DNA from: an uncultured Fibrobacter sp.
Lineage (GTDB): Bacteria; Fibrobacterota; Fibrobacteria; Fibrobacterales; Fibrobacteraceae
Length of the DNA stretch: 46,868 bases
NCBI RefSeq assembly: GCF_947305105.1
Contig: NZ_CAMZCS010000027.1
Span: 1-46,868 of the forward strand
Direction of reading: 5' to 3'
In this document: positions 1 to 12,273 of the stretch, in pieces
How the letters are laid out: every line of letters begins with the position of its first letter
Numbering within the stretch: position 1 is the first letter of the stretch
Translations under genes and position numbers: made by a program
Notes under the pieces: model-generated
Told to the model about the DNA's origin: nothing
Databases searched by the model: none
Seen by the model: only the letters and a program-made list of their open reading frames with translations

Positions 1-20
1 GGGCATGGCCACCTTTAGGT

Positions 21-192
21 GGTGGGCTAGGGAGAAATATCACGGCTTCGCCGTCCTATATTGACGCACGAAGTGCGTGATTCTTTTCACTAGCCGCTAG
101 TCTCTATTCTCTAGTCTCTTGAAGCTTCACTGCTCATTGCTCACCGCTCACGGCTCATTGCCCGAGCCCCGCGCCTCGAGCCTCGTGCCTTT
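21..192. repeat. Intergenic mosaic repeat, copy A (hairpins + heptads)
   Basis: Copy A of a repeat also found at 3437-3628 and 7290-7452. It begins with a TAGGGAGAAAT core, followed by the hairpins ACGGC-TTC-GCCGT and ACGCAC-GAA-GTGCGT. From about 88 to 192 a degenerate 7-nt periodicity follows, for example tgctcat, tgctcac, cgctcac, ggctcat, tgcccga, gcctcga, gcctcgt. A separate hairpin CCACC-TTTA-GGTGG lies just to the left (about 9-22). The repeat ends about 20 nt before the ribosome-binding site of the gene at 227. Its function is unknown. Confidence 0.85.
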
Positions 193-226
193 TTATTATT
201 TTATTAAGAGTTGAAGGAGATGGGTT

Positions 227-3200
227 ATGTCTTCAAGATTTTTGTTTTCTATTTCTGCGGCACTTCTTGCCGGAACCGCTGCCACCGCAGCGACTATTAC
301 TCCTGTAGTGCCGATTCAGTCAGATGGCTGTTACCAGATTTCGACAGCGGAGGAACTCTACGGTTTTGCCGAAATTGTAAACGGGAATGACAGTATTCCT
401 GGGAATAGTGCTGTTTGCGGCGAACTCCTGAATGATATCGTTGTAAATGAGAACGTGCTGGATGAATCGGGGAGGCTCAATCGCAATAGCGCCAAGACTT
501 TTGTTCCATGGATACCGTTAGTTGGATTCTCGGGAACGTTCAATGGCAACGGGCATGTCATCTCAGGACTATATTCCGCCACAAAATCTGGACTTTTTGA
601 ATCGATCTCTTCGTGGGATTCTGTTGTCGTCGTGAAGAACTTAGGAATTGTTGATTCTTATTTCTCGCCTTCATCCGCTGCCGGGGTCCTTACCAATAAT
701 ATTTATGGGAAGGCAGAAGTCCGGATAACCAATTTCTACACATTGTCTACCATTGAGACTCCAAGGGCTTATCTAGATATGGGGGCTATCACGGGTTATT
801 TAGACGAAAGAGCGCATTTGACCGTGACAAACTGCTATAACGCGGGATTATTTGTCGATAGTGACAATGATTTTTATTCAAGTTTTTTTGATAAATGGGA
901 CGCGTTTTCAACTTATCCATATGTTAAAATAAGCAACTCCTACACACTGAAGCGAAAAGGTATTCGCTATGTTACTTATGGAGCTTTAACGGATTCTGCC
1001 GCTTTTAGTAACGGGGCGGTTGCGTACGCCTTGCGTGAAGGAGAGGACGGTTCCATTTGGGGGCAGATCGTAGGTAAGGATAAATATCCGGGTTTTTCTG
1101 GCCGTCTCGTAAATACTGCGACGGCTAGGTACAATGTTACGTTCCATACTTTTGAGGGTGATACGGCCTCCTATTTCGATAGCTATATCTCTGGATTCAA
1201 CGTTGCTCTCCCCGAAAAAGTCGAGCAAGAAAATATGTACTTTGGCGGTTGGTACAGGAGTGCTGAATTCAGCGGAACGCCTGACACGATTATTTCTGAC
1301 ACAACAAAAGGGGATCTTGAATACTGGGCGAAGATGAATAGACGCTATAAGATAACCTATCATGCCGACGGTGCCGTTTTTTCATTGTATCGTCAAGAGT
1401 GTATTCTGGACGATTATGTGCCCATGGAAGAAAATACGGATTGCTACATAAGCGGAAAAGGAACGGTGCTTTATAAATGGCTTGGTCGTGACAGCAGTAT
1501 CTTCTTGGAATGGTACGACAACGAGGAACTGACGGGAAATCCGGTTGATTCTGTGGGGCCGGATGAAACGGGCGACAAGGATTTCTATGCCAAGTGGTTC
1601 GACCTCAAGAGGCCGCCGATAGACCCTGCGGACAGTTGCTACGAAATTTCGGATGTGGCGGAACTCTTCGGTTTTTCCGCACTTGTGAACGGGGAGTTTG
1701 CCGAGGGGGAAAAACGTCTAGATGACGTCTGTGGTAAACTTACGCAGGATATTGTTGTGAACAAGAATGTCTTGAAGGAAGACGGAACACTCGACAGCGC
1801 AAGAGAGGAGGAATTTTTCCCATGGAATACTATAAATCTTTATAATGGCTTTTTCGATGGGCAAGGGCATACGATTTCCGGGCTCTATGTGAATGAAGCG
1901 ATATTTAGTGCGTATGCGCCTGAGCCTTATGATTATACCAAAGTTACCATTCGCAATTTAAAAGTCAAGGATACTTTCGTTTATGGTTATCATTTTGCTG
2001 CCGGAATTATTAGTTCTTATAGCGGTTATCGCCCTTTGATGGAAATAGATAACACGCATTTTGATGGCGCTATTTACGTAGATGAATACGCGGCCCATGT
2101 TGGTGGTCTGGTCTCGTATGCCGATTATGTATTGATTATAAAAAATAGTAGCCATCGTGGGATAATTTCTATTCCTGATGGGGGTTATGCCGGAGGCCTT
2201 GTGGGATACTCTGATGAGTATATGGTTCTTTTGCAGAATTCCAATGAAGGACGCATTGAAGGTGGTGATGAAGTGGGTGGCTTGGTAGGGGAAATCTCAG
2301 GGCAATTCTTTATTGCGAACAACTACAATGCTGCCGACATTGTTTGTAATAAATGTCTTGCGAATGGTTTGATTGGGGGCTATTTTTCTGGAATTGGCCA
2401 ATCATTTGTCCTTAATAATTATAGCAGTGGTTTGGTTAGTGGTTCTAGTGGTGTGTGGCTAAAGAATTATAACGTGACTTTTGAAAACAACTACTATTTG
2501 ACAGGGACGAGCTTTATAGACGGCATCGGGACAGAGGTCGAAGCCTTGGATTTTGCTAATGGGACCGTGGCTACGGCGTTGTACAATTATGTCCAGAATG
2601 ATGCTGCCGGTATAGAAATTGTGGGTGGTGCTACGGGCGATAAATGGATTCAAGGTAGCAAATACCCTATTTTCTTTGAAAATGAAACGCGCAGTGTTAT
2701 ACGGTTGCGCGAATATGATGTGCCAACGAATGCTCTTTTATATACGCCAGGTCAGACGCTGCCTTTGCCAACTCCTACTGCAAAAGGTTACGATTTTTTG
2801 GGTTGGTATTATGACTCTAATCTGATAACTGAAATCCCTGCGACGGCATCTGGGTATTTTGTTATTACGCCGAAATGGCAAAAACACGTGAGTAGTTCCA
2901 GTATTGCATCCAGCAGTTCCGTGGCGCCGCCCGGTCCCGCCAATACGAGTTCTAGCGTTGCGGCATCTTCGAGCAGCGAGGAAAAAATCAGTTCCAGCTC
3001 TCCGGAAGTCAATTCCAGCTCCGCTATGTCCAGCAGTTCTGTGAAATCTAGTTCCAGCAGAGCCAAGTCTTCTAGCAGCGTCAAGTCGAGCAGTTCTTCT
3101 GCAAAGGCGAAGTCCAGTAGTAGCAAGGCTAAGTCTAGCAGCAGTAAGGCGAAGTCTAGTTCCAGCAAGGCGAAGTCCAGCTCTAGCAAGGGCAAGGACG

Positions 3201-3436
3201 CCATTGCCGCCGCCGGCCAGCTGCCGCAGTTCTCGCTTGCCGCTGTCGGCCGCAGCATCCAGGTGTCCGGTGCCCGCGTGGGTTCTGTCTACGCCGTGTT
3301 CGACATGCAGGGCCGCGTGATTGCCAACGGCCATGTAAATGCCACGGATTTCAGTGTCCACATGGACCGCTCCGCGACTTACCTGATGCGCATAGGCAAC
3401 CAGACGCAGAGAGTGAAAGTAGGAAGTAGACAGTAG
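227..3436 (+). CDS. Giant secreted surface protein, GLUG/InlB-like repeats with Ser-rich linker and T9SS-like C-terminal domain
   Basis: 1069 aa. The start is supported by GAAGGAG 6 nt upstream. A signal peptide (1-20, ending TAATAA) is followed by two similar halves. Each opens with the pattern CYxIS-x-AELYGFA, then F-G-T-F-NG-GH-xISGLY, and then GLUG-like glycine-rich repeats (for example AGGLVGYS near 660 and VGGLVGE). The halves are separated by InlB/Listeria-Bacteroides-type beta repeats (about 300-460 and 850-890; GWYxxxxF, YAKW). Residues 887-990 are a Ser-rich linker with a repeated KAKSSSS unit. Residues 1000-1069 resemble the type A C-terminal sorting domain of type IX secretion (VYAVFDMQGRVIANG..., ATYLMRIG). 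It is probably an outer-surface adhesin. The next gene is a paralogue with nearly identical ends and a diverged middle. The last codons run into the heptad repeat. Substrate or ligand unknown. Confidence 0.9.
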   Translation: MSSRFLFSISAALLAGTAATAATITPVVPIQSDGCYQISTAEELYGFAEIVNGNDSIPGNSAVCGELLNDIVVNENVLDESGRLNRNSAKTFVPWIPLVGFSGTFNGNGHVISGLYSATKSGLFESISSWDSVVVVKNLGIVDSYFSPSSAAGVLTNNIYGKAEVRITNFYTLSTIETPRAYLDMGAITGYLDERAHLTVTNCYNAGLFVDSDNDFYSSFFDKWDAFSTYPYVKISNSYTLKRKGIRYVTYGALTDSAAFSNGAVAYALREGEDGSIWGQIVGKDKYPGFSGRLVNTATARYNVTFHTFEGDTASYFDSYISGFNVALPEKVEQENMYFGGWYRSAEFSGTPDTIISDTTKGDLEYWAKMNRRYKITYHADGAVFSLYRQECILDDYVPMEENTDCYISGKGTVLYKWLGRDSSIFLEWYDNEELTGNPVDSVGPDETGDKDFYAKWFDLKRPPIDPADSCYEISDVAELFGFSALVNGEFAEGEKRLDDVCGKLTQDIVVNKNVLKEDGTLDSAREEEFFPWNTINLYNGFFDGQGHTISGLYVNEAIFSAYAPEPYDYTKVTIRNLKVKDTFVYGYHFAAGIISSYSGYRPLMEIDNTHFDGAIYVDEYAAHVGGLVSYADYVLIIKNSSHRGIISIPDGGYAGGLVGYSDEYMVLLQNSNEGRIEGGDEVGGLVGEISGQFFIANNYNAADIVCNKCLANGLIGGYFSGIGQSFVLNNYSSGLVSGSSGVWLKNYNVTFENNYYLTGTSFIDGIGTEVEALDFANGTVATALYNYVQNDAAGIEIVGGATGDKWIQGSKYPIFFENETRSVIRLREYDVPTNALLYTPGQTLPLPTPTAKGYDFLGWYYDSNLITEIPATASGYFVITPKWQKHVSSSSIASSSSVAPPGPANTSSSVAASSSSEEKISSSSPEVNSSSAMSSSSVKSSSSRAKSSSSVKSSSSSAKAKSSSSKAKSSSSKAKSSSSKAKSSSSKGKDAIAAAGQLPQFSLAAVGRSIQVSGARVGSVYAVFDMQGRVIANGHVNATDFSVHMDRSATYLMRIGNQTQRVKVGSRQ

Positions 3437-3628
3437 ACAGTAGGCAGTAGGAAGTGATTAGGGGCTAGGATCTAGGGGCTAGGGAGAAATATCACGGCTT
3501 CGCCGTCCTATATTGACGCACGAAGTGCGTGATTCTTTTCACTAGCCGCTAGTCTCTATTCTCTAGTCTCTCGAATACTCATTGCTCACCGCTCATAGCT
3601 CATTGCTATTTCCTCGCCCCTCGCTCCT
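3437..3628. repeat. Intergenic mosaic repeat, copy B
   Basis: It starts directly at the stop codon of the preceding gene with heptads (agtagac, agtagac, agtaggc, agtagga, beginning inside the coding end at about 3421), then agggnct-type heptads to 3480. The same TAGGGAGAAAT core and two hairpins as copy A follow, then tctattc/tctagtc and tgctcac/cgctcat/agctcat heptads. From 3475 to about 3570 it is almost identical to copy A. No T-tract follows the hairpins closely enough for a confident terminator, although ACGCAC-GAA-GTGCGT followed by gattcttttc could act as a weak one. Confidence 0.85.
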
Positions 3629-3664
3629 TTTTGTTATTTTATTAAGTGTTGAAGGAGATAAGTC

Positions 3665-6600
3665 ATGACTTCAAGATTTTTGTTTTCTATTTCTGCGGCA
3701 CTCCTTGCCGGAACCGCCGCCACCGCGGCAAGCATCACTCCCCAGCAGCCGGCGCTATCGGATGGCTGCTACCAGATTTCGAGCGCAGAGGAACTCTACG
3801 GCTTTGCCGCCATCGTGAACGGGACGGACGGATTCGCGAAGAACAAGTCCGCCTGCGGCAAACTCCTGAAGGATATCGTCGTGAACACGGATGTCCTCTA
3901 TGCATCGGGATCCCTTAAAGACGAAAATGCTGCAAGTTTTGTTCCGTGGAACCCCATCGACAGTTTCGCGGGAACCTTCGACGGGAACGGGCACACCATC
4001 GCTGGCCTGTACAGGGACGTGTCCGACGAAGATGACGCCAAGGATGTCGGCTTCATCCGCACTCTCGTGGGAAATCCCGACGGGGAGACGGTGATAAAGA
4101 ATCTAGGAATAATTGATTCCTACTTCGCGGTGAAAAGCTTGTACGTTGACGAGGTGGTAGGAATTTTTGCTGCCAAGGTGGTCGATTCCGATGCGAGCGA
4201 CAACAAGGATTCCCATGTGAAAATCCTGAATTGCTTTAATATGTCGTCGGGCAATTACGGCGGTAGCAGGTTCATCAATCATCTGTTGTACGAAATTGAC
4301 GAGCGTGTATCCGTCACAATCGAAAACTGCTACAATGTGCGCGGCGAAAAAATCCACGGATCGAATTACGGCTTGCTTGTCGTCAAGAATTCCTTTGTTC
4401 TGGGTTCGAATGAACAGGATGAAAAAGGGGGCATCAAGACCGCGAACGAGACACAGTTTGAAAACGGGACCGTGGCGCGCGCCCTGCACGAAGGGACCGA
4501 CGGCTCTATTTGGGGTCAGGATGTCGGGACGGATGACTATCCGAACTTCTCGGGCGAAATCAAGAATTCCGCGGCGGCCAGGTACAGTGTGACGTTCCAT
4601 ACGTTCAATGGCGACACGGCCTCTTATTTCGACAGCTATATCTCCGGATTCAATACGGCCTTGCCCGATACCGTCGAAAAGGAAAACACGGTTTTCTTCG
4701 GCTGGTACGACAATTCCGCATTTGACGGAAACCCGTATAAGGTTATCAAGGATACGGCGAAAGGGAATCTCGAATATTGGGCGAAACTCAAGAACCGTTT
4801 CAATATCTATTTCCATTGCGGTGAAGGGAGATTTGATGGCGACTGGAATACAAGTAGCCTGATAAGCGAGATTTCGCGTGAAGACACGATTTTCAACTAT
4901 ATAGAAGGGGCCCAGGCATCGCTTCCATATACCGGCCTATCAAATGAGGGCTACGTTTTCTCTGGTTGGTATGATAACGAGGAATTGACGGGAGTGCCGG
5001 TTGATTCCATTGTAGGGACGGATGTGGGCGATAAGCATTTCTATGCATCCTGGTTCAAGATAAGCAAACCGGAGCGGGATGTTGCGGACAATTGCTATGC
5101 CATTTCGGACAAGGCGGAACTTTACGGTTTTGCGGCCATGGTCAGAGGGACGTATGGCGATGGGCAGGCTTCGCAGCCTAACCTTTGCGGCAAGCTCACG
5201 AAGGATATCGTGGTCAACGAGAATGTCTTGAAGCGCAACGGAACGCTTGACAGCTCCAGGATGTCGACGTTCATGCAGTGGACTCCGATAACTGTTTTCA
5301 GTGGGACGTTCGATGGGCAGGGGCATAAGATTTCCGGCCTGTATGGATCGCCGTTGTTCGGTTCCATTTATGCGGGCGAAGCCGGAAAACCGGTTGTCAT
5401 CCGCAACGTGAAGGTGAACGATTCTTACGGAGCTAGTAGCGGTCTAGTGAGTTATGTCAATGACAGTACGATCTTATCTATGGACAATTGCCACTATAGC
5501 GGCTTTGTTTATGGTTGGCACGATAATGTGGCGGGTGGTCTTATTAATAGATCTTACGGCTACATCAATATGTTTAACAGCAGTTTTGAGGGAATCATTT
5601 TCTCCGACGCCCTTATGTTCGTGGGCGGCCTTGTAGGGGAATCCTACACCAACCTGGTTCTCATGCAGAGTTATATGAAGGGTACCATAAACCTTGTGAA
5701 TACCATGCAAATGGTGGGGAGCAATACATATTCTAGGCTTTATGGCGCTGGCACCCTTGTTGGCCATATGACCGGCCATGCCTTTATAGCGAACAATTAC
5801 AGCATCACCGATTTTACGGGAGAGACCCCGAGGGGCCATGCGGGCGGGCTGATTGGAAGCTTGAGTCTCTCGAGAGTGCTGGTCAGTAGGACGGATGTCG
5901 TTGAATACCGTATATTGCGCTCCTTTGTCCTCAACAACTACAATAAGGGATCTATGCCTGCAGATGCCGATATTACTGATTTAAGCGAACAAGTGGTTGT
6001 CGACAACAATTTCTATTTGGGGGGTGGCTTGTCGGATTCCTGCGGAGCGACTCCCGTTGCGGAAGCCGCCTTCACGGATGGCACTTTGCAAAACGCCCTC
6101 CACGATTACGTCCAGAAAGACAGCTCCGGCAATGCGGTCGCGCAGGGCATCACCGGCGATATCTGGACCCAGGGCGCAGAATATCCCGAATTCGCCCAGC
6201 CGGAAAAGATTAACGCAGTTGTTCTCGAAGGGGATACCTTGGGCGTCCTCAATAGCCCCATTCTCGTTTACAAGCCGGGTCAAACCTTCGAGCTGCCGCC
6301 GCTTGAACATGGGAGTATCATATTCAAAGGTTGGTATGCCACGCCGGACTTCTCTGGCGATACAGTTGTCGGCATTGCCGCAACGGATGCGGGTGACAAG
6401 GTTTTCTATGCGGATTGGGACATTGCGAAATTCCAGGTGGCCGTCGGTTCGAACTCGCCCGGTGGCAGGGTAGGGTTAAGGGCAAACGGCAGCACTAACT
6501 TCTCGCAATATGTTTCCAGCACGGTCCCGTATGGGACCACAGTGACTGCGAGCGCGGATGCGTATGATGGTTATGTTTTTGTAGAATGGAACAATGACAT

Positions 6601-7123
6601 TTGTGGCAAAAAGGCGACTTGTACGTTCACCGTGACGGAAGACATTGCGTTTACTGCGTCCTTCGATAAACTGAGCAGCAGTTCTGCGGCCTCGAGCAGC
6701 TCTGTGGCGTCCAGCTCCAGCGTCTCTTCGAGCAGTTCTGCAAAGCCCGTTTCCAGCAGCGTGCAATCGAGTTCCAGCTCCGCCAAGTCCAGCAGTTCTG
6801 TGAAATCCAGTTCGAGCCGCGCCAAGTCCAGCTCCAGCAAGGCTAAGAGCAGTTCTAGCAAGGCCAAGTCGAGTTCCAGCAAGGGCAAGGATGCAATTGT
6901 TGCTGCTGCCCAGGTGCCGCAGTTCATGCTCACGGCTGTGGGCCGCGATATCCAGGTGGCCGGTGCCCGCGTGGGGGCTGCCTATGCTGTGCTCGACATG
7001 CAGGGCCGCGTGATTGCCAACGGCCATGTAAATGCCTCGAATTTCACTATCCGCATGGATCGCTCTGCGACGTACCTGGTGCGTATCGGCAATCAGACGC
7101 AGAGAGTGGTAATTAGGGATTAG
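3665..7123 (+). CDS. Giant secreted surface protein, paralogue of the gene at 227
   Basis: 1152 aa. The start has GAAGGAG upstream, and its leader is nearly identical to that of the first paralogue. The signal peptide (1-20) is the same except for one residue. It has the same two-half architecture: GLUG-like Gly-rich repeats (ISGLYG, VGGLVGES, AGGLIGSL) alternating with InlB-type repeats (about 310-375, 415-460, 870-920). Unlike its neighbour it has an additional divergent InlB-like repeat at about 930-1000 (CGKKATCTFTVTEDIAFTASF). The Ser-rich linker is at 1002-1075 and the T9SS type A-like C-terminal domain at 1076-1152. The middle has higher GC than in paralogue one, whereas the 5' and 3' ends match closely in DNA. 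That is consistent with tandem duplication followed by divergence or cassette exchange. Predicted surface adhesin; ligand unknown. Confidence 0.9.
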   Translation: MTSRFLFSISAALLAGTAATAASITPQQPALSDGCYQISSAEELYGFAAIVNGTDGFAKNKSACGKLLKDIVVNTDVLYASGSLKDENAASFVPWNPIDSFAGTFDGNGHTIAGLYRDVSDEDDAKDVGFIRTLVGNPDGETVIKNLGIIDSYFAVKSLYVDEVVGIFAAKVVDSDASDNKDSHVKILNCFNMSSGNYGGSRFINHLLYEIDERVSVTIENCYNVRGEKIHGSNYGLLVVKNSFVLGSNEQDEKGGIKTANETQFENGTVARALHEGTDGSIWGQDVGTDDYPNFSGEIKNSAAARYSVTFHTFNGDTASYFDSYISGFNTALPDTVEKENTVFFGWYDNSAFDGNPYKVIKDTAKGNLEYWAKLKNRFNIYFHCGEGRFDGDWNTSSLISEISREDTIFNYIEGAQASLPYTGLSNEGYVFSGWYDNEELTGVPVDSIVGTDVGDKHFYASWFKISKPERDVADNCYAISDKAELYGFAAMVRGTYGDGQASQPNLCGKLTKDIVVNENVLKRNGTLDSSRMSTFMQWTPITVFSGTFDGQGHKISGLYGSPLFGSIYAGEAGKPVVIRNVKVNDSYGASSGLVSYVNDSTILSMDNCHYSGFVYGWHDNVAGGLINRSYGYINMFNSSFEGIIFSDALMFVGGLVGESYTNLVLMQSYMKGTINLVNTMQMVGSNTYSRLYGAGTLVGHMTGHAFIANNYSITDFTGETPRGHAGGLIGSLSLSRVLVSRTDVVEYRILRSFVLNNYNKGSMPADADITDLSEQVVVDNNFYLGGGLSDSCGATPVAEAAFTDGTLQNALHDYVQKDSSGNAVAQGITGDIWTQGAEYPEFAQPEKINAVVLEGDTLGVLNSPILVYKPGQTFELPPLEHGSIIFKGWYATPDFSGDTVVGIAATDAGDKVFYADWDIAKFQVAVGSNSPGGRVGLRANGSTNFSQYVSSTVPYGTTVTASADAYDGYVFVEWNNDICGKKATCTFTVTEDIAFTASFDKLSSSSAASSSSVASSSSVSSSSSAKPVSSSVQSSSSSAKSSSSVKSSSSRAKSSSSKAKSSSSKAKSSSSKGKDAIVAAAQVPQFMLTAVGRDIQVAGARVGAAYAVLDMQGRVIANGHVNASNFTIRMDRSATYLVRIGNQTQRVVIRD

Positions 7124-7610
7124 ACGAGAGACGAGATAAACGATACTAGGCACTTTAGTGCCTTAGTAGAGTTATCCTCTATGAGGAGAACGCCGCTGCG
7201 CGGCTACAGACGAGAGGAAAAAGTAGGCGTAGGTTTGTCATTGCGAAGGGCGAATAGCCCTGAAGCAATCTCTAGATATGAGTTAGGGATTAGGATCTAG
7301 GGTTTAGGGAGAAATATCACGGCTTCGCCGTCTGTTATAACACACGAAGTGCGTGATTCTTTTCACTAGCCTCCAGTCTCTATTCTCTATTCTCTCAAAG
7401 ACTCACCGCTCATAGCTCATACCTCATCGCTCACTGCTCGAGCCTGGAGCCCGTTGTGGACAATTCGCTGTTTTTCCCTGATTCGGGCTTACTCCTTGAT
7501 TGCAACTCTTTGAGTGTCAACGCTTTTTTTTTGTGACGCTATAGCAGACTATCTTGTGGATAGGATGTTGATAAATGTTGAAGGTGTGAATTGATGTTGA
7601 AGGTTCGGCC
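7124..7610. repeat. 487-nt gene-free region with mosaic repeat copy C and dispersed-repeat fragments
   Basis: No gene seen. From left to right there are heptad-like gacgaga units at the end of the preceding gene; hairpins GGCAC-TTTA-GTGCC, CCTC-TAT-GAGG, GCCGC-TGC-GCGGC and GGGC-GAATA-GCCC; and a gtcattgcgaa...gaagcaatctc unit resembling a dispersed intergenic repeat common in many bacteria. Copy C of the mosaic repeat follows (about 7290-7452; core at 7305, hairpins, heptads to 7452). After that comes unique sequence with two near-matches to a DnaA box, TGTGGACAA at 7455-7463 and TGTGGATAG at 7555-7563, exactly 100 nt apart, and two atgttgaagg repeats (7574-7602). Confidence 0.75.
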
Positions 7611-11360: not shown

Positions 11361-12194
11361 CTATCCTTTTTTAATTTCTGATTTGTTTGTCATCGGGAAG
11401 AACTGGACGTTCAGGCGGTACACCTCGTCGCTGTCCTTTTCCTTGGTGGCGATTTCAATGATTCTTTTGCGGAATGCCGCGATTTCTTCGACAATCTCGT
11501 GGTAGGCATTGCGCGTGATGCCGAGAGTGATGCCCGAAAAGTGGCGTTCGTCTTGCGGTACGCCCTCGATAGCCTCCAGTGCGAACTCGCCCATTTGCCG
11601 GTGCATCCCGCGGATGGCGACGGCTGCGGCACCTAGGGGCCCTGTTGTCACCACGCGATCGGTCTGTACGTAGTTGTCGTGCTCGTCTTTCTGCAGCAGG
11701 TCCGCCTTGACAAGGAAGTTGAGCGATTCGCTCACTTCGGCAGCGCTGATTTTGGGGCGGCATGCGTGGGCGAGCGCAAGTGGCTTCGCTCCCGGCATCG
11801 CGGGAGCAAGTTCACGGAGCACCGGGTTTTTCCAGCTATCGAAATAGCGGAAGGCGTCGCCCTCGATGATTTTTGCCTTGTTCTGGTTTGCGATGGCGAG
11901 CATCCTGTTGAAAGCGTCCTTCTTGGCCTTGTCGGTTTTGGCGTGGTCGAACTGCGTCATTTCGCGGAAGTACTCGCGGCGCTGTCCCGTGAGGTGCATG
12001 GCGTCGGCCACGCGTTCTACGGCGTCCTCGCTCAGGCTGAACTGCCCTTCGCTTATGTATTTGAGATAGACCGACGAAGTGAATCCCGCTTTCTTTGTGA
12101 ATTCACGCCAGGTGAAAGCGGTCTTTTCCTTTTTTTCGGCATAGTAGTCGGCGATGTATTGCCGGTATCCCGTGTATTCAAATATGTCCTTCAT
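11361..12194 (-). CDS. TIGR02147 / DUF4423 family protein, putative regulator
   Basis: 277 aa from the ATG at 12194, chosen because AAGGAGGG precedes it; an open frame extending to 12266 lacks a site and runs through the promoter. The N terminus carries the family signature IFEYTGYRQYIADYY, then a helix-turn-helix-like stretch (about 28-65: WREFTKKAGFTSSVYLKYI...VERVADAMHL). The C-terminal half is the DUF4423-type domain, ending with the conserved VYRLNVQFFPMT. Two homologues lie at 20242 and 41535, each also followed at once by a lipoprotein gene. The inferred role is a cytoplasmic transcriptional or cofactor regulator of the downstream lipoprotein. This is inference; the family has no settled function that I know of. 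Confidence 0.9.
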   Translation of the reverse strand: MKDIFEYTGYRQYIADYYAEKKEKTAFTWREFTKKAGFTSSVYLKYISEGQFSLSEDAVERVADAMHLTGQRREYFREMTQFDHAKTDKAKKDAFNRMLAIANQNKAKIIEGDAFRYFDSWKNPVLRELAPAMPGAKPLALAHACRPKISAAEVSESLNFLVKADLLQKDEHDNYVQTDRVVTTGPLGAAAVAIRGMHRQMGEFALEAIEGVPQDERHFSGITLGITRNAYHEIVEEIAAFRKRIIEIATKEKDSDEVYRLNVQFFPMTNKSEIKKG

Positions 12195-12244
12195 GGACCC
12201 TCCTTCCAACATCTCGATGGTTCGATTCTGTCGGATTTGTTTTA

Positions 12245-12273
12245 AACATAAACAAAAAAAATTCAAAAGTCAA
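12245..12273 (-). promoter_or_regulatory. Sigma70-like promoter of the DUF4423-FISUMP operon
   Basis: On the minus strand, TTGACT (12268-12273), a 17-nt AT-rich spacer and TATGTT (12245-12250). The predicted leader is about 45 nt before the ATG at 12194. This is the best canonical promoter seen in the window. Confidence 0.65.

Follow-up and report, generated by a model that had tools for sequence, protein, structure and literature searches.

The window, by which we mean the whole stretch of 46,868 nucleotides analysed here, makes up contig C27 in its entirety; the draft Fibrobacter genome to which it belongs measures 3.57 Mb and is 99.97% complete. Near its beginning, two paralogous genes on the plus strand are accompanied by three copies of an intergenic repeat. 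Gene A (227..3436) encodes a surface-protein-like product with List_Bact_rpt repeats (Pfam PF09479, E 7e-15) and a Ser-rich linker; its paralogue, gene B (3665..7123), matches Pfam PF09479 and PF18998. Each copy of the repeat is built around a core with two hairpins. The cores, all in plus orientation, occupy 21..95 in copy 1 (hairpins 42-54 and 64-78), 3473..3547 in copy 2 (hairpins 3494-3506 and 3516-3530) and 7298..7371 in copy 3 (hairpins 7319-7331 and 7340-7354). The first is an exact core match and was aligned with 70 other copies; the second scores 101 bits with our model R1 and is terminator-like on both strands; the third contains the exact 27-mer described below and has 2 mismatches in its second half.

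The cores are flanked by arms of degenerate 7-nt units, also on the plus strand. Right, pyrimidine-rich arms follow copy 1 (92..191; lag-7 identity 0.67 at 94-192, z 8.4), copy 2 (3544..3628; 0.68 at 3542-3628, z 7.2) and copy 3 (7368..7447; 0.63 at 7365-7452, z 6.6). Left, purine-rich arms with the triplet TAG precede copy 2 (3423..3479; 0.71 at 3423-3480, z 6.4) and, in shorter form, copy 3 (7283..7304; 0.55 at 7266-7310, z 3.6). As the window begins at a contig end, left heptads are missing from copy 1. The place of the arm is taken by bases 1..24, which on the minus strand are a fragment of a different repeat unit, the 54-nt module b (CCACCTAAAGGTGG...); L003 and L067 contain this module too, and several right arms carry it the other way round. 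The original prediction had the repeats touch the stop codons of both genes. This is true of gene A, whose TAG (3434-3436) falls inside a heptad, but copy 3 is separated from the stop of gene B by two modules on the plus strand. One of them (7186..7217) is a hairpin module, GAGAA-C[GCCGC-TGC-GCGGC]-TACAGACGAG, a slot that holds many different self-complementary stems; the other (7237..7272) is a palindromic module, GTCATTGCGAAGGGCGAATAGCCCTGAAGCAATCTC, found again beside many cores with a middle stem that differs among copies.

The three copies themselves are real. A 27-nt core sequence, TAGGGAGAAATATCACGGCTTCGCCGT, recurs exactly at 28-54, 3480-3506 and 7305-7331, where the chance expectation is zero. 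Both predicted hairpins are present in all three copies, with the reservation that hairpin 2 of copy 3 reads ACACAC-GAA-GTGCGT and has one mismatch. The degenerate heptads were borne out by the proposed autocorrelation: lag 7 outranks all other lags in each tested flank, with identities of 0.49-0.71 and z-scores of 3.6-9.9 in the window, and the peak stands above shuffled sequence in all of them (dinucleotide shuffles give about 0.25-0.30 identity, and 0/1000 were as high). A lag-7 scan over the whole window flags no zones besides the flanks of the copies.

The search for further copies returned them in the own genome and in relatives, and the family proved larger than first noted. The genome harbors at least 71 core copies (23-nt core, up to 3 mismatches), split 31 to 40 between the two strands; the reversed core pattern gave 0 matches in the same search. 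The figure of 71 is a pattern count and leaves out more divergent copies (over 3 mismatches); each of the 71 was retrieved for comparison with the others. Several cores lie within about 250 nt of the ends of contigs C1, C7, C27, C32, C39, C44, C53, C57 and C63. Because of this position, the family may break short-read assemblies and the true copy number may exceed 71. The copies are scattered round the genome, most of them beside other genes, and the suggested special link to surface genes is thereby lost.

The core spans about 75 nt and consists of GGCTAGGGAGAAATATC, hairpin 1 (ACGGC-TTC-GCCGT), a 9-nt linker (CTTATATTG, CTGTTATTA and variants), hairpin 2 (ACGCAC-GAA-GTGCGT) and GATTCTTTTCACTAGCC. 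Both hairpins have 3-nt loops, stems of 5-6 bp and pyrimidine-rich tails pointing outward, and mean column identity over 28 distinct cores is 93%. The two halves are mutually inverted: the left arm of the core, GGCTAGGGAGAAATATCACG, agrees with the reverse complement of the right arm, GGCTAGTGAAAAGAATCACG, at 16/20 positions, and model R1 also scores well against the opposite strand of many copies. The whole element is thus an imperfect dyad. Its single strands fold well both ways, with fold z-scores of -3.8 and -3.2 on the two strands.

The heptads follow the same symmetry. The left arm consists of purine-rich units in which TAG keeps step with the core (found in 71/71, 67/71, 66/71 and 55/71 copies at positions one to four) and of AGTAGAC and AGTAGGA types farther out. 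The right arm is its mirror image, with CTA-phased heptads followed by TGCTCAT and GCCTCGA types. On the plus strand, C and G fractions are 0.11 and 0.35 on the left, 0.30 and 0.18 on the right. Wherever two arms lie close together, the purine-then-pyrimidine order prevails, by 58 vs 12 in G000 regions and by 15 vs 3 in 397 kb of G083 sampled without selection. Within one genome a great variety of stems, self-complementary for the most part, fills the slots GAGGTC[..]TTTGAGG and GAGAA[..]TACAGACGAG. The arrays often end at TTTACTATATTTG, which resembles the -10 element of a promoter serving the gene that follows, for example in L324 around the start of prfC.

Orthologous intergenic regions were compared at flank identities of up to 98%. 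Element sites are mostly inherited vertically, and the number of heptads differs between species at orthologous sites; the arm lengths differ by 7-nt steps (L048/L193, L006/L194). The core keeps the same orientation in 49/49 orthologous pairs, at loci chosen because the element is present, and inversion of the core between orthologues can be dismissed (0/49). Recent core movement with clean ends or target duplication was not seen at the compared sites. Modules around and in place of the core are exchanged. The 54-nt module partly seen at bases 1..24 (CCACCTAAAGGTGG...; CCACCTAAAGGTGGCCATGCCCACATAAGTGCTAAAGCACTAAGTGGTCAAAGG) has two hairpins and occurs in both orientations. Between close species it is a clean insertion in a heptad arm, present in L194 and absent from L006, and it looks mobile in its own right. 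In the pair L099/L170, another palindromic module stands in place of the core and the outer heptads are unchanged. Next to prfC, one core is shared by several closely related species. L328 has at this site, between heptads that are unchanged, a core from a different subfamily in reverse orientation; L330 contains other hairpin-heptad modules and G054 (L331) has a short bare spacer and nothing more.

Larger units differ between relatives as well. Tb.RUG.359 (L145) has the arrangement E-A'-E where the window has E-A-E-B-E, so that one surface gene and one element copy were gained or lost. A three-gene cassette (L075:2101-4919) sits within repeat zones of this genome and is missing in three relatives. 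The predicted recombination of surface-gene cassettes is retained in so far as these two loci show species differences in cassettes that copies or their repeat zones delimit, a pattern compatible with recombination; the tie to surface genes is not. DUF4423 proteins are encoded at window positions 11361-12266 and at L075:4107-4919, the second one within the cassette missing from relatives.

By BLAST, the core occurs in 32/111 genomes of the family, all within one genus; a covariance model finds it in 37/80 Fibrobacter genomes. In distant species both hairpins are written with other letters and pairing is kept. When 25 cores are aligned, 97.5% of the cells are paired and 41 hairpin cells are changed on both sides, vs 12.9 in shuffles. 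The covariation score of the hairpins is 0.426 vs 0.197, and the signal collapses once the partner is slid. One-sided changes of G-U type occur in just 2 cells, which suggests pairing as DNA rather than as RNA. Five TAG-phased heptads in a row are found more widely, in 103/168 Fibrobacterota genomes, and counts of the reversed pattern are low in most of them. G129, which belongs to a different family within the phylum, has TAGCAAG and TAGCCAG arrays that are long and near-perfect (L301, L306, L307), and one mirrored GTGACGA / TTTCCAC pair lies among these loci. One species (L280:1473-1599) has CAATTAA / TAATTGT heptads, not TAG types, around an ACGCC-TCT-GGCGT hairpin. Viral carriage of the core was considered and dropped, since IMG/VR contains 0 exact matches.

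Cores are commoner between convergent than between divergent genes. None of the 71 copies is spanned by a called gene (calls combine ORFs with a hexamer coding score, and individual cases may be wrong). Where both neighbours are called, cores lie in 16 convergent, 32 tandem and 5 divergent contexts, to be compared with 23, 102 and 35 intergenic regions, respectively, in G083. In 28/32 tandem pairs the core is nearer to the stop of the upstream gene than to the next start. The repeats frequently start at the stop codon itself, and several convergent pairs have hardly anything besides the element between both stop codons. Core orientation in tandem pairs shows no preference (15 vs 17), as expected of a symmetric device. 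Generic heptad arrays in G083 have no convergent or 3'-end preference; a 3' bias as a general trait of heptad arrays is rejected, and the core family alone shows it. This bias could merely reflect selection against landing in promoters.

Read outward, each core hairpin is followed by GAT and then by a tail with 53-56% T and 2-3% G (25 species variants). The core is flagged as terminator-like on both strands, in a scan whose region-wide yield is at chance level (8 vs 8.2). With stems of 5-6 bp and imperfect T-tails, the hairpins would be weak terminators by E. coli rules. The genome encodes Rho, and in the outward direction the heptad arms are rich in C and poor in G. REPs are reported to assist Rho-dependent termination (PMC2817692).

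We suggest, with somewhat less than even confidence, that the element is a genus-wide, non-autonomous, structure-defined dispersed intergenic repeat able to serve as a two-way transcript end. The unit is a dyad in which a 9-nt linker joins hairpins 1 and 2, with the purine heptads on the left and the pyrimidine heptads on the right; its copy number, intergenic location, mirror symmetry, compensatory hairpin changes, length steps of 7 nt and exchange of modules within the arms are shown by the data above. Its core might be spread by an enzyme or a recombination pathway that recognises the hairpins in their DNA form, its arms would grow and shrink through replication slippage, and copies would be retained mainly behind genes. 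There, outward hairpins with T-rich, G-poor tails could act as back-to-back transcript ends in any landing orientation, possibly aided by Rho. Among functions, the two-way transcript end is the best supported one, as far as it can be judged from 3'-end placement, tails and near-empty convergent pairs. A terminator-like effect of the cores on transcripts is plausible on these sequence grounds.

Several other explanations deserve attention. One is purely mutational: slippage would make heptads, template switching at quasi-palindromes would perfect the hairpins, and the functionless product would accumulate between genes because nothing removes it. Lengths of orthologues that step by 7, heptad families that vary from species to species, same slots with many perfect 3-nt-loop stems and few broken intermediates, and generic arrays that occupy the intergenic space of G083 irrespective of 3' ends all speak in its favour, and slippage was proposed for heptamer over-representation in bacteria (PMC4692102). 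We nevertheless regard it as somewhat unlikely, for it leaves unexplained 71 near-identical cores at unrelated sites, the steady order of purines on the left and pyrimidines on the right, and the convergent enrichment of the core family. A bolder proposal makes heptads and hairpins a phylum-wide intergenic grammar of purine heptads, 3-nt-loop hairpins and pyrimidine heptads. A specialised, as yet unrecognised machinery for processing DNA hairpins would compose and revise it, exchanging hairpin modules inside the conserved slots among the heptads; the same machinery would fix the step at 7 nt and maintain flawless stems with no G-U intermediates. We hold this to be quite unlikely. That copies exist or persist as recombination handles, because gene cassettes such as the surface genes of the window get shuffled, would fit the cassette differences at L145 and L075. 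Yet any direct repeat permits such shuffling, the paralogous genes supply homology too, most of the 71 copies flank other genes and the L075 junctions fall in generic heptads, not in the core, which makes this reading improbable. Movement in trans by a RAYT or another IS200/IS605-type tyrosine transposase, as in a REP/BIME/REPIN family, is suggested by the BIME-like build (PMC2817692) of inverted 3-nt-loop hairpin halves, intergenic, in high copy and within a palindrome mosaic, and by a shape that is conserved when the sequence is species-specific. However, 0 Y1_Tnp proteins were found in this genome and no GTAG-type tetranucleotide abuts the hairpin. Across 80 Fibrobacter genomes, 14 have both Y1_Tnp and core, 23 core only, 13 Y1_Tnp only and 30 neither. 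With no mobiliser of this type in the genome and no clear association across the genus, we rejected it as the agent, and the whole scenario is decidedly improbable. The short Y1_Tnp proteins that 27/80 Fibrobacter genomes do encode are mostly about 120-206 aa and IS200-like by length.

Two further accounts are hardly credible. According to one, period-7 TAG heptads are selected to close every reading frame, which such a period achieves because 7 and 3 share no factor. Three frames are indeed closed inward within 49 nt by left arms in 62/63 and by right arms in 49/63 copies (read outward, the right arm closes all three in just 7/63), and stops in this genome's arms reach 10.7 per 100 nt, vs 8.5 in dinucleotide shuffles. 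Against it, total stop density does not exceed shuffles in G083, G129 and G108, TAA is depleted in G083 and G129, and within arms TAG mutates to GAG, AAG or CAG, not to other stops; as a general rule for heptads, stop-codon selection is largely refuted by the densities in those three genomes. The other account, that every copy encodes a structured regulatory RNA, has on its side the fold z-scores and the strong hairpin covariation, and is equally hard to believe. G-U intermediates are nearly absent, both strands fold near-equally with symmetric composition, core orientation is unbiased relative to genes and no Rfam family was matched.

We now compare the element with known kinds of repeat. In agreement with the original prediction, we found no prior description for Fibrobacter in the open-access literature. 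STRRs of heterocystous cyanobacteria share period 7 and intergenic location with the element; we know of no enclosed two-hairpin dyad in them. The element should not be equated with STRRs, as its heptads are degenerate and lie in inverted arms enclosing a structured core. Like REP, BIME-1 and REPIN sequences (PMC2817692, PMC3116915), it is a high-copy extragenic set of short inverted palindrome pairs, lineage-specific and mosaic. Unlike them, it resides in a genome without RAYT or other Y1 transposase, has long degenerate heptad arms in inverted orientation and, instead of GTAG, carries CTAG/TTAG about 14 nt from the hairpins with AATC/GATT adjoining (cross-species alignment). Since the transposase is missing, we liken it to BIMEs and REPINs in build alone. 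Of the MITE hallmarks, terminal inverted repeats with target-site duplication, the inverted halves are present; no target duplication appeared at the compared sites, where heptads blur the boundaries. The heptameric SSRs of Xanthomonas (GGGAATC) and Nostoc (GGGGATT) are likewise intergenic tandems of 7-nt units, near the 3' end of the upstream gene and varying in number among relatives at conserved sites; they are, however, near-perfect single-unit arrays, studied as G-quadruplex formers (PMC4692102), whereas the units here are degenerate, of many types in fixed order, and mirrored on the two sides of a hairpin core. The TAACTGA direct repeats found in Beggiatoaceae, cyanobacteria and Bacteroidetes are intergenic heptads as well, with stops in all frames one way, but consist of 2-6 copies of one exact unit, mostly start-codon-oriented and without a hairpin core (PMC4679880). 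Lacking RAYT, GTAG and an exact single unit, the element is best seen as a variant that combines the BIME/REPIN build with SSR-like arms.

Taken together, these results bear on an old question, the over-representation of 7-nt repeats between bacterial genes, which has so far been studied in simple arrays. Here the heptads come with a structure-conserved core and a mirror order, and the sequenced Fibrobacter species, about 80 in number, represent every stage of change; such material allows slippage, hairpin exchange, dispersal and function to be told apart. Copies at contig ends also bear on assembly quality. If the cores do end transcripts both ways, then one dispersed repeat would be a common 3'-end part of dozens of genes in a major fibre-degrading genus of the rumen.
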